From: Chloracidobacterium thermophilum B
Lineage (GTDB): Bacteria > Acidobacteriota > Blastocatellia > Chloracidobacteriales > Chloracidobacteriaceae
DNA length: 64,000 bases
Direction: 5' to 3'
Assembly: GCF_000226295.1 (NCBI RefSeq)
Contig: NC_016024.1
Location: forward strand, 2,525,501-2,589,500
Position 1 is the first letter of the stretch. Every line of letters begins with the position of its first letter. Below the pieces are notes generated by a model. That model saw only the letters and a program-made list of their open reading frames with translations, was not told where the DNA came from and ran no database searches. The position numbers were made by a program, and so were the translations under genes. Below are positions 32,025 through 35,307 of the stretch, piece after piece.

Positions 32025-32921
32025 ATGCCTGATACCCAGCAGCATGAGATGCGACTCAAAACCGGTCTGGCGGAAATGCTCAAAGGCGGCGTCATCATGG
32101 ATGTCGTCAACGTCGAGCAGGCGCGCATTGCTGAAGAAGCCGGCGCCGTGGCCGTGATGGCGCTGGAGCGCGTCCCGGCCGACATTCGCCGCGATGGCGG
32201 GGTGGCGCGGATGTCCAACCCGCGCATGATCCGCCAGATTATGGAGGCCGTCTCGATTCCCGTCATGGCCAAGGTACGTATCGGACATACGGCTGAGGCC
32301 CAGGTGCTTGAAGCCCTTGGGGTGGACTTCATTGACGAGTCGGAGGTCCTTACTCCGGCCGACCCCTATCATCACGTCAACAAGTTTGCTTTCCGCGTCC
32401 CGTTCGTCTGCGGGGCGACCAACCTGGGTGAGGCGCTGCGCCGCATTGGCGAGGGCGCGGCCATGATTCGGAGCAAAGGGGAAGCCGGGACGGGCAACAT
32501 CATCGAGGCGGTGCGCCACCTGCGGGAAATCCGCCGCGACATCCGCCTGCTGACCGTTCTCGACGAAGACGAGCTGATGGCCGAGGCCAAGCGGCTTCAG
32601 GCCCCCTATGAACTCGTGCGCTACGTGGCGCAGCACGGCAAGCTGCCGGTGCCGCTCTTTGCGGCCGGTGGCGTCGCCACTCCGGCCGATGCGGCGCTTT
32701 GCATGCAACTGGGTGCTGAAACCGTGTTCGTTGGTTCGGGCGTCTTCAAATCCAATGACCCGGCCCGCTTTGCCCGCGCCATCGTCAAAGCCGTGACGTT
32801 TTATCAGGACCCGGCCAAGGTGCTCGAAGCCTGCGAGGAAATCGAAGACGGACAGCCCATGCGCGGGCTGGCAATTGAAACCCTCCCAGCCGAACAGGTG
32901 CTTGCCGCGCGCGGCTGGTAG
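32025..32921 (+). CDS. pdxS: Pyridoxal 5'-phosphate synthase subunit PdxS
   Basis: This 298-residue TIM barrel makes PLP from ribose 5-phosphate, glyceraldehyde 3-phosphate and ammonia. Family motifs are [39 protein letters not shown], the catalytic Lys in VMAKVRIGH, and GEAGTGN. Ammonia comes from the glutaminase PdxT, which is not in the window. The ATG at 32025 has GGAGG 9 bp upstream. An intrinsic terminator lies 55 bp past its stop. Confidence 0.96.
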
Positions 32922-32961
32922 CCCAACCTTCCTGACCGTCTGCAAACCCTCGCGGACGGCG

Positions 32962-32992
32962 TTGGACATCCATCCTGGGCGTTGCCTATGCT
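32962..32992 (+). promoter_or_regulatory. Candidate promoter for the dnaE C-terminal gene
   Basis: TTGGAC (32962-32967) and TATGCT (32987-32992) are separated by 19 bp, overlapping the pdxS terminator stem. Transcription would begin near 33000 and give a very short leader. The match is weak and the spacer long. Confidence 0.25.
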
Positions 32993-33019
32993 GTAAAGGC
33001 TTTTCGGCAACGCCCTTTT
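32977..33019 (+). terminator. Rho-independent terminator after pdxS
   Basis: A perfect 10-bp inverted repeat, GGGCGTTGCC (32977-32986) and GGCAACGCCC (33006-33015), has a 19-nt loop and is followed by TTTT (33016-33019). It ends only 7 bp before the first ATG of the dnaE fragment, so pdxS read-through into that gene should be poor. Confidence 0.75.
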
Positions 33020-33035
33020 GTTCTGGATGCCCACG

Positions 33036-34352
33036 ATGTCACTGCGTGAAATCAGAATTACCCGTGTGACACCCGTCGGACCGGCGCCGACCTACAACGT
33101 GACCATGCGGGCACCGCTGCACAACTATTTTGTCAACGACCTTCTGACGGCCAACAGCCACTCGGTCTGCTACGGTGTGCTCGCCTACCGCACGGCCTAT
33201 CTCAAGGCACACTATCCGGCGCACTTCTGGGCGGCGGTGCTGACCAGCGAGCTGAACGACAGCGACAAGGTTGCCCGTTACATCGAGCGGGCACGGGCGC
33301 AGGGCGTCGAAATTCTGCCGCCGGATGTCAACATCAGCGAGCACGGTTTTACGGCGACCGCCGGCCGGATTCGGTTTGGTCTGATGGCCATCAAGGGCAT
33401 CGGGGAAGCCACGGTGGATGCCATCCTCGAAGCCCGCGCGCAAGGCGGTCCGTTCCGTTCGCTGTTTGACTTCACCGAGCGGATTGATCCCAAGACGCTC
33501 AACCGGCGGGTGCTGGAAAGCCTGGTCAAGTCGGGTGCGCTGGACAGCCTGCCGGGGACGCGCGCCCAGAAGTTTGCCGCCATCGAAGCTGCACTCGAAC
33601 AGGGGCTACAGGCGCACCGCGCCGCTGCAGCGGGACAGGTCTCCCTGTTTGACACACTGGCGGCTGACTCCGACCAGCCCCCGGAAACTGAACTGCCCAG
33701 GGTTCCCGACTGGACGGCCGAGGAAAGCCTGGCCGGTGAAAAAGCCACTCTTGGGTTTTACCTGACCGGCCATCCTCTGGCCGGCTTCCGTGAAACCCTG
33801 GCGGCGTTCAAAAGCCTGTCCTACGCCCAACTGGCCGGTCAGACGGCGGGCGATACCGTCAGCATGGGCGGCGTCATCAGCGAATTTACCGTGAAAAACA
33901 CGAAGAAGGGCGACCGCTTTGCCGTCTTCAGCCTCGAAGACGAAACCGGAAGCATCGAGGTCATTGCCTGGCCCGAAACCTTCAGGCGGCTTGGCGAGCA
34001 GGTGGCGGATGGAGCCGCCGTACTGGTCACCGGCCGGCTGGAAATCGAAGACGGCAAGCCGACCAGAATCGTGGCCGAAGCGGCCGAACCGCTGGAAGGG
34101 CTGCGGGAGCGGCATGCCAAAAGCGTCATGCTGCGCTTTGCAGCGGACGCACTCGATACTGCACAACTTGAAAAGCTCCGGGATGTGCTTGACCGCCATC
34201 GCGGAGAACGCCCCCTGATCTTCGTGCTCTCTCTGCCGAATGGTGTGGAAGCCCGCCTTCGCGCGCACCACACCTTCAGCGTGCGGCCCTCACTGGCGCT
34301 CGTGGAAGAACTGCAAGCTGGCTTCCCCGGCTGTACGGTTGTGCTTCAGTGA
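33036..34352 (+). CDS. dnaE: Split-intein C-half fused to DNA polymerase III alpha C-terminal part
   Basis: 438 residues from ATG 33036 (ATG 33027 is also possible). Residues 1-40 look like a split-intein C-fragment: VTPVGPAPTYNVTM then PLHNYFVNDLLTAN, matching intein blocks F and G and ending in Asn40. Ser41 starts the extein at SHSVCYGVLAYRTAYLKAHYP, a conserved DnaE segment normally preceded by FNK. The extein (398 residues) holds helix-hairpin-helix (GIGEATVDAI) and OB-fold regions (FAVFSLEDETGSIEV), matching the last third of DnaE. A TAA at 32994 closes the frame just upstream. The N-terminal polymerase piece with its intein half is not in this window. Confidence 0.88.
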   Translation: MSLREIRITRVTPVGPAPTYNVTMRAPLHNYFVNDLLTANSHSVCYGVLAYRTAYLKAHYPAHFWAAVLTSELNDSDKVARYIERARAQGVEILPPDVNISEHGFTATAGRIRFGLMAIKGIGEATVDAILEARAQGGPFRSLFDFTERIDPKTLNRRVLESLVKSGALDSLPGTRAQKFAAIEAALEQGLQAHRAAAAGQVSLFDTLAADSDQPPETELPRVPDWTAEESLAGEKATLGFYLTGHPLAGFRETLAAFKSLSYAQLAGQTAGDTVSMGGVISEFTVKNTKKGDRFAVFSLEDETGSIEVIAWPETFRRLGEQVADGAAVLVTGRLEIEDGKPTRIVAEAAEPLEGLRERHAKSVMLRFAADALDTAQLEKLRDVLDRHRGERPLIFVLSLPNGVEARLRAHHTFSVRPSLALVEELQAGFPGCTVVLQ

Positions 34353-34386: not shown

Positions 34387-35307
34387 ATGACATCCCAGGT
34401 TGTCTCGCCCCAGCCCGAACCGGCAGCACCAACCCCTGAACTGGCAGCGTCGGCCGTCGCGCCGGAGCTGCCGCCGGAATTCAACAGCATCATCAACCTT
34501 CAACTCCCGGTCGAGGATGGTGTCCCCTTGGAAAGCGTCTGGCATCGGCTGCAAATCAATCTGCTCGACGACTGCCTGCACCAGCACTGGCGTGGGCGGA
34601 CGGACTTTTTCGCCAGCGGCAACATGTTTGTGTACTACAGCCTGCAACAGGTGAAGACGATGGAGTACAAGGGGCCGGACTTCTTCGTGGTGAAGGACGT
34701 GGACGGCTCCTTCATCCGTGGGGCGTGGGTGGCCTGGGAGGAAGGCGGACGGCTCCCGGATGTCATCGTCGAGTTGCTCTCGCCTTCAACCCAGGCGGTC
34801 GATCTGGGTCAGAAAAAACAGCTCTACGAGCGGGTCTTTCGGACGGCCGAGTATTTCTGCTACGGCCCTGACCCGACGTTTGGCAAAACGCCGACACTTC
34901 AGGGCTGGGTGCTTGTCCGCGGGCAGTACGAAGCCATTGAACCCGATGCCCGTGGGTGGCTGTGGAGTCACCAGCTTGGAGCCTGGCTCGGTGAGTGGGA
35001 AGGGCAGTACCACGCGATGCAGAATCGGTGGCTGCGACTTTACGACCCCACGGGGCAGCTTATCCCAACCCGGGCCGAAGCGGCGGAAGCCGAGGCCGAA
35101 CGCGCTCAGGCTGAAGCTGAACGCGCTCAGGCCGCAGCCGAGCGTGCTCAGCTGGAAGCCAGACAAGCCCGCGACGAAGCGGAAGCCGAGCGCACCCGCG
35201 CTGAAGCCGCCGAGGCCCGGGCCGCCGCCCTCGCCGCCGAGATAGAGCGTCTGCGGTCCAGTCTGAAGGGAACGGACCAGGGCCCCGGCCTCGACGAACC
35301 GGCCTAG
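34387..35307 (+). CDS. Uma2-family (DUF820) putative endonuclease with coiled-coil tail
   Basis: A 306-residue protein. Residues about 25-220 match the Uma2/DUF820 PD-(D/E)XK-like fold: GPDFFVVKDVDG, then LPDVIVELLSPSTQ and KKQLYERVFRTAEYFCYGP, with EWEGQYHAMQNRWLRLY. The tail (about 225-295) is a coiled coil of Ala/Glu/Arg repeats with units like EAERAQA. Such proteins are common in cyanobacteria and filamentous phototrophs; their function is not established. The ATG at 34387 follows the dnaE fragment by 34 bp. The 3' end overlaps gyrA by 4 bp. Confidence 0.78.
   Translation: MTSQVVSPQPEPAAPTPELAASAVAPELPPEFNSIINLQLPVEDGVPLESVWHRLQINLLDDCLHQHWRGRTDFFASGNMFVYYSLQQVKTMEYKGPDFFVVKDVDGSFIRGAWVAWEEGGRLPDVIVELLSPSTQAVDLGQKKQLYERVFRTAEYFCYGPDPTFGKTPTLQGWVLVRGQYEAIEPDARGWLWSHQLGAWLGEWEGQYHAMQNRWLRLYDPTGQLIPTRAEAAEAEAERAQAEAERAQAAAERAQLEARQARDEAEAERTRAEAAEARAAALAAEIERLRSSLKGTDQGPGLDEPA

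Follow-up and report, generated by a model that had tools for sequence, protein, structure and literature searches.

A split DnaE intein in Chloracidobacterium that looks independent of cyanobacteria and probably began as a mobile 'fractured-gene' intein

The two halves of dnaE

The window analysed here, a 64,000-nucleotide stretch of the Chloracidobacterium thermophilum B genome (contig NC_016024.1, positions 2,525,501 to 2,589,500), carries a gene for the C-terminal part of the polymerase DnaE, preceded by the C-terminal half of an intein. Within the open reading frame (ORF) at 33018-34352 on the plus strand, whose translation reads ...PLHNYFVNDLLTAN|SHSVCYGVLAYRTAYLKAHYP across the junction, ORF reading and a family alignment placed a 40-residue C-intein (IntC; 33036..33155, plus strand; MSLREI...HNYFVNDLLTAN, with blocks F and G), after which DnaE runs from SHSVCYG to its end (the C-extein; 33156..34352, plus strand; 398 aa and a stop codon at 34350-34352). 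A sequence-only reading of this locus had described a C-intein of about 40 residues leading directly into DnaE, and this held, except that it started the gene at TTG 33018; the start is most likely ATG 33036, because the protein is conserved in all seven genomes of the genus only from MSL onward. Translation from this ATG gives the 40 residues MSLREIRITRVTPVGPAPTYNVTMRAPLHNYFVNDLLTAN, followed by DnaE from SHSVCYGVLAYRTAYLKAHYP. The frame is closed upstream by an in-frame TAA at 32994, and the neighbour is pdxS (ending at 32921), not dnaE, both as that reading had it; the C-half gene sits between pdxS and a Uma2-family gene.

The C-half matches HHH_6 (2.8e-32) and the OB-fold tRNA_anti-codon domain (2.4e-11) in Pfam and DnaE in NCBIfam (4e-101). 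Matches to the DnaE models begin at residue 45-47; the exceptions among the NCBIfam models are PRK07373 (449 residues), which matches from residue 12, and two PolC models, whose matches start no earlier than residue 94.

The sequence-only reading predicted a partner elsewhere in the genome, namely a dnaE N-half with FNK at its end and, after it, Cys1 and blocks A and B. We located it at C1:1113592-1116312 of the same genome (G000; 3.70 Mb in two contigs of 2,683,362 and 1,012,010 bases). This ORF of 907 aa comprises 765 aa of DnaE, ending in ...GFADYAFNK, and a 142-residue N-terminal intein half (IntN; CVTGEATLRDAVTG...LEDGRTLRCTLDHKFYT...GLCR and stop), which begins FNK|CVTGEATLRD and has TLDH in block B. 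Searching the genome with PF07733 returned a single place (C1:1114498-1115313), and searching it with the C-half protein returned the C-half itself (C1:2558518-2559849) and one weak match (E 0.064). Neither search found a second or uninterrupted dnaE, and an N-half with intein motifs is present; the earlier reading had named the opposite of each as grounds for abandoning it.

The halves lie on the same strand. In contig coordinates 1.44 Mb separates them, or about 1.24 Mb in the other direction should the replicon be circular. They are two separate ORFs with IntN on the N-extein and IntC on the C-extein of DnaE, which is the organisation of a naturally split intein. Since no other dnaE was found, trans-splicing at FNK|SHS is very probably needed for replication.

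Both halves are present, and split likewise, in all seven genomes of the genus (G000-G006). In the two-contig genomes both are on C1, 1.4 Mb apart in G000 and G001 and 0.72 Mb apart in G006, and in the four draft genomes they are on different contigs. An ntrC-like gene follows the uninterrupted dnaE in all three relatives from the order that were examined (G010, G012 and G013) and follows dnaE-N in five of the seven genus loci, suggesting that the N-half stayed at the ancestral locus while the C-half moved behind pdxS; the dnaE-N locus at 1.11 Mb is probably the ancestral dnaE locus.

Upstream of the C-half gene lies a promoter-like site (TGGACA-N18-TATGCT; 32963..32992, plus strand), the only site found by a promoter scan of 32850-33200 (mean of 0.1 in shuffled sequences). 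TGGAC and TATGCT are unchanged, with ungapped spacing, in all seven genus genomes, and we regard the site as the putative promoter of the C-half. Sequence reading also revealed an inverted repeat around the -10-like hexamer (GGGCGTTGCC/GGCAACGCCC; 32977..33015, unstranded), with perfect 10-bp arms that overlap the hexamer and TTTT after it; the arms are recognisable in six of the seven genus members, the right arm being absent in G006. It was not reported by a terminator scan with a loop limit of 8, and it is possible that it serves as the pdxS terminator or as an operator regulating the dnaE C-half.

Directly after the C-half is the Uma2-family gene (34387-35304), which has a coiled-coil-like tail. 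A Uma2 gene occupies this place in G000, G001 and G006, and none was seen there in the other four genus members. Another lies between the dnaE halves of the relative G009 (see below), but we rejected a functional link and treat the two placements as coincidence, because Uma2 is multicopy (five in G000, 15 in G009 and 50 in G008) and the two proteins are only 27.8 % identical.

Intein sequence, fold and selection

The residues expected to catalyse splicing are intact. Cys1, T70 and H73 (block B T..H), HN of block F, N35 and the terminal AN are invariant in all nine family sequences (numbered by the first rows of the two intein-half alignments). Eighteen intein positions, the closing LTAN included, are identical in these nine sequences, so the C-intein match is not due to chance. 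Ser occupies +1 in 16/16 intein-bearing sequences compared, and the shifted site FNK|SHS, Ser+1 and penultimate Ala noted in the sequence-only reading are all correct. The intein has the residue set of class 1 split inteins (Cys or Ser at position 1, block B TxxH, a C-terminal Asn, and Cys, Ser or Thr at +1).

Among solved structures, IntN is closest to DnaE inteins (E 4.6e-7), followed by DnaB and gp41-1 inteins. An AlphaFold2 model of a fused homologue from the relative G008, built from 20 alignment rows with split halves among them, reached a predicted local distance difference test (pLDDT) score of 90.4. Its best Foldseek match was the Ssp DnaE intein (1zd7; template modelling (TM) score 0.83), while VIA-align placed Npu DnaB (Z 21.0), Ssp DnaB (20.6) and Ssp DnaE (20.2) in a tie. 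The Hint fold is confidently modelled for this fused relative.

Mean ratios of non-synonymous to synonymous substitution (dN/dS) over the 21 genus pairs were 0.062 for the N-extein, 0.160 for the IntN core, 0.70 for the IntN tail, 0.158 for IntC and 0.102 for the C-extein (saturated pairs were dropped: 1/21 for the IntN core and 9/21 for the tail). Both intein halves are therefore maintained, and drift affects the free end that the split created.

Gene structure, catalytic residues and purifying selection are established; from established intein chemistry, and because no other dnaE was found, we infer that the halves associate and splice and that the cell needs them to. The 1.11-Mb locus would yield an N-precursor (765 aa of DnaE and 142 aa of IntN) and the window gene a C-precursor (40 aa of IntC and 398 aa of DnaE). 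IntN and IntC would then associate into one Hint fold, a thioester would form at Cys1, the N-extein would be handed to Ser+1, and Asn40 of IntC would cyclise, leaving a 1163-aa DnaE joined at FNK-SHS. The junction Lys is a trypsin cut site, and a tryptic peptide across FNK-SHS would be seen only with a missed cleavage. We consider it highly probable that DnaE is made as two polypeptides joined by trans-splicing; an endonuclease-bearing mobile intein is the probable origin.

Arrangements across Blastocatellia and the origin of the split

An IntN profile returned strong matches (E <1e-30) in 15 of 162 Blastocatellia genomes, in five arrangements; 32 further genomes, outside the 15, had matches only at E 2.9e-8 or weaker. 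In a phylum-wide set of 396 genomes searched up to E 1e-9, seven matched, all belonging to the 15. The halves are dispersed in the seven genomes of the window's genus. G008 encodes a fused mini-intein of 160 aa within one 1702-aa frame. In G127, G130, G131, G155 and G161 the halves are neighbours separated by a free-standing ORF of 268-270 aa, and in G156 a relic of 22 codons (ATGCCCCGAACAGCTTGGAACAAACGGCTCACACCGGAAATTGAAGAACGGATCACGAGGTATTTATGA) takes the place of the endonuclease gene. Finally, G009 has a Uma2-family gene between the halves, and the stop codon of this gene overlaps the start of IntC. At the identical DnaE site, a fused intein of 176 aa occurs in a Chloroflexi contig (L071). 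The site is uninterrupted in all twenty of the other Blastocatellia dnaE loci fetched; G007, which belongs to the same family, has a contig end before it and was left out of the count.

Two inteins occur in some of these dnaE genes. The second, at NTFGV|CTYQEQ in G008 (L029/L032) and G009 (L028/L031), is larger and has LAGLIDADG-like motifs, and the dnaE frame of G161 (L063/L098) likewise yields a second intein match.

The middle ORFs of the five relatives align over their length (5/5), and the three scanned match PF14528 (LAGLIDADG_3; 2e-13 to 1.5e-9). An AlphaFold2 model of one of them (pLDDT 71) resembles bI3 maturase, E-DreI and I-AniI at TM ~0.5, and by repeats and fold these ORFs are predicted LAGLIDADG endonucleases. 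In all five, the endonuclease gene begins shortly before the IntN ORF has ended, and its stop codon overlaps the IntC start codon (ATGA), suggesting translational coupling; G130 and G131 have an extra ATG six bases before the IntC ATGA start. The G156 relic still encodes the beginning of the endonuclease (MPRTAWNKRLTPE) and retains the ATGA overlap. In this genome (L043/L097) IntN and IntC share one frame with a single stop between them, and reinitiation or read-through would decide whether the intein is split or nearly fused.

Across the 162 genomes, strong matches to an endonuclease profile (E <1e-150) occur only at the five dnaE loci, with a weaker match (6e-22) in one further genome. Endonuclease dN/dS was 0.21 for G130-G131 and 0.095 for G127-G130, six of the ten pairs being saturated. 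In comparisons between families, intein identity is 74.0 % (G161-G130) and 70.5 % (G161-G127), against 54.1 and 52.4 % for DnaE over its full-length alignment, whereas within family f9 (G161-G155) the intein is 71.2 % and DnaE 77.0 % identical. In the DnaE tree, supported by the Shimodaira-Hasegawa-like approximate likelihood ratio test (SH-aLRT) only, the intein-bearing genomes of family f6 are nested with their uninterrupted congeners G128 and G132. The junction codons are CGC|AGCCA(C/T)TC in 6/6 endonuclease-bearing and relic genomes, against CGC|TCGCAC in G132 and AGA|TCGCAC in G128, which is the pattern that co-conversion would leave; AGC at the site also occurs in some more distant uninterrupted loci. 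Cross-family intein similarity and the flanking codons point to homing. Among the uninterrupted loci, three from f9 and one from f5 (L081-L083, from G157-G159, and L102, from G023) have Ala at +1. Ala there would not support splicing, and these dnaE loci are possibly immune to the intein.

The window's own genome gave only a weak endonuclease match (E 0.014), at L076 (G000:C2:56831-57091) within a 1592-aa frame on the second contig that may be another intein. None of 96 pattern matches in viral contigs was confirmed as an endonuclease relative, and the fused intein had no match among plasmids. In a phage collection, 133 records matched the endonuclease, ten among the matches listed being 26-33 % identical; some of these phage endonucleases (H1-H10) are annotated as intron-encoded, a hint at the source of the middle ORF.

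We propose that the split DnaE intein of the genus is independent of the cyanobacterial one and probably began as a mobile 'fractured-gene' intein. A mobile dnaE intein, with adjacent halves around an overlapping free-standing LAGLIDADG gene, would have lost that gene, and in the genus ancestor the C-half would have relocated behind pdxS, where the promoter-like site is conserved. On the fullest version of this account, to which we give a probability of about 0.6, a selfish mobile split intein spread by homing among Blastocatellia dnaE genes, lost its endonuclease and dispersed, each stage being preserved in a living relative; it arose independently of cyanobacteria at a neighbouring site in the same conserved DnaE motif, and left the polymerase obligatorily split.

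Several observations weigh against this account. Resolution of the intein tree is weak, and the approximately unbiased test did not reject a single f9 intein clade (p-AU 0.0745). The proposed order of steps is therefore tentative, and the case for transfer is made from the contrast in identity and from the junction codons instead of the tree. How the fused G008 form arose is ambiguous, and the endonuclease-bearing stage supposed for the genus is likewise tentative. Searches around dnaE in G008 and G009 did not find the ntrC-like gene, and the short flanks of G002 and G005 gave no match to it either. As regards the intein itself, phmmer returned nothing from the PDB for IntC alone (E up to 10), and IntN scores below the cut-off of Pfam PF14890 (21.1 versus 35.8 bits). 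In 14/14 split genomes the first 108 residues of IntN are acidic (-8 to -19) whereas IntC is basic (+2 to +6), but the fused G008 intein shows the same charge pattern, which is hence not specific to split forms.

The alternative that survives best accepts trans-splicing and has an ancestral fused mini-intein broken by rearrangement, with the endonuclease-bearing split forms as a side branch. The fused mini-inteins of G008 and L071 at the same site, an intein tree that groups the genus with G008 and G009 (88/88) and the failure to find an endonuclease homologue in the genus all agree with it. However, the close relative G009 has an in-place split around a gene that occupies precisely the position of the endonuclease gene in other genomes, and by eye the G008 linker resembles an IntN-frame reading of the endonuclease start region of G156, which suggests re-fusion. 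We regard such a simple break as possible but clearly the less probable route.

Far less plausible is a two-subunit polymerase held together by non-covalent association, its intein pieces being inert leftovers: the catalytic residues are invariant (9/9), purifying selection acts on the IntN core and IntC and little on the IntN tail, and an unspliced intein would sit within a conserved DnaE motif. Acquisition of the split dnaE from cyanobacteria, which are known to have split DnaE inteins and are often neighbours in mats, seems more doubtful still. The best solved relatives of IntN are DnaE inteins, those named being cyanobacterial, and the organism is itself a mat phototroph. Against this, the site lies four residues downstream of the cyanobacterial one and has Ser, not Cys, at +1; the DnaE exteins group with the uninterrupted dnaE of the order (SH-aLRT 94, in a tree without cyanobacterial rows); and other Blastocatellia have fused and in-place split forms. 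That the window gene is a pseudogene fragment, as its being shorter than a normal DnaE might imply, can be dismissed, since it encodes the only DnaE C-terminal part found in the genome, with a mean dN/dS of 0.10 and a conserved promoter-like site and start.

Comparison with known systems

A literature search of partial coverage, which does not establish absence from print, found no report of a split dnaE in Chloracidobacterium or Blastocatellia. An intein paper lists a C. thermophilum B protein in text that makes no mention of dnaE (PMC4071816), and a deltaproteobacterium with dnaE in two adjacent frames and a separate intein is stated not to be a split-intein case (PMC6390638).

Cis-splicing mini-inteins (Ssp DnaB, Mtu RecA mini) share the Hint fold, size and lack of an endonuclease with the intein described here, which differs in being split over two genes; fused forms occur in G008 and in Chloroflexi L071. 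Fractured genes with split inteins have a counterpart in the five Blastocatellia genomes with a free-standing homing endonuclease gene between the halves, an organisation absent from the window's genus. Dassa et al. (2009) reportedly described fractured genes with another endonuclease family, in phage or environmental genes. Here the endonuclease is of the LAGLIDADG type and the gene a bacterial chromosomal dnaE, and the genus has dispersed halves and no endonuclease gene.

The cyanobacterial junction is Y|CFNKSHS, with Cys at +1, so that the intein precedes the Cys of CFNKSHS; the FNK|SHS insertion with Ser+1 is not of this type. These new split inteins, with Ser+1, may be of use for protein ligation, and a second case at a neighbouring site suggests that one DnaE motif is prone to this outcome. 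Split dnaE genes in cyanobacteria have been described (PMC3403396 and PMC9403480), their halves being distant genes (PMC7765530), and the cyanobacterial intein has been discussed as a selfish element made indispensable via neutral steps (PMC3403396). The present system would be a second such case, in another phylum, and as its relatives are in apparent intermediate states (endonuclease-bearing split, relic, gene replacement, fused and dispersed), the route becomes testable. It shares with the cyanobacterial split DnaE inteins (Ssp, Npu) the host protein, the placing of IntN on dnaE-N and IntC on dnaE-C in separate genes and, as modelled for the fused G008 intein against 1zd7, the fold, and differs from them in phylum, in insertion site and +1 residue, and in having relatives with an endonuclease gene between the halves.
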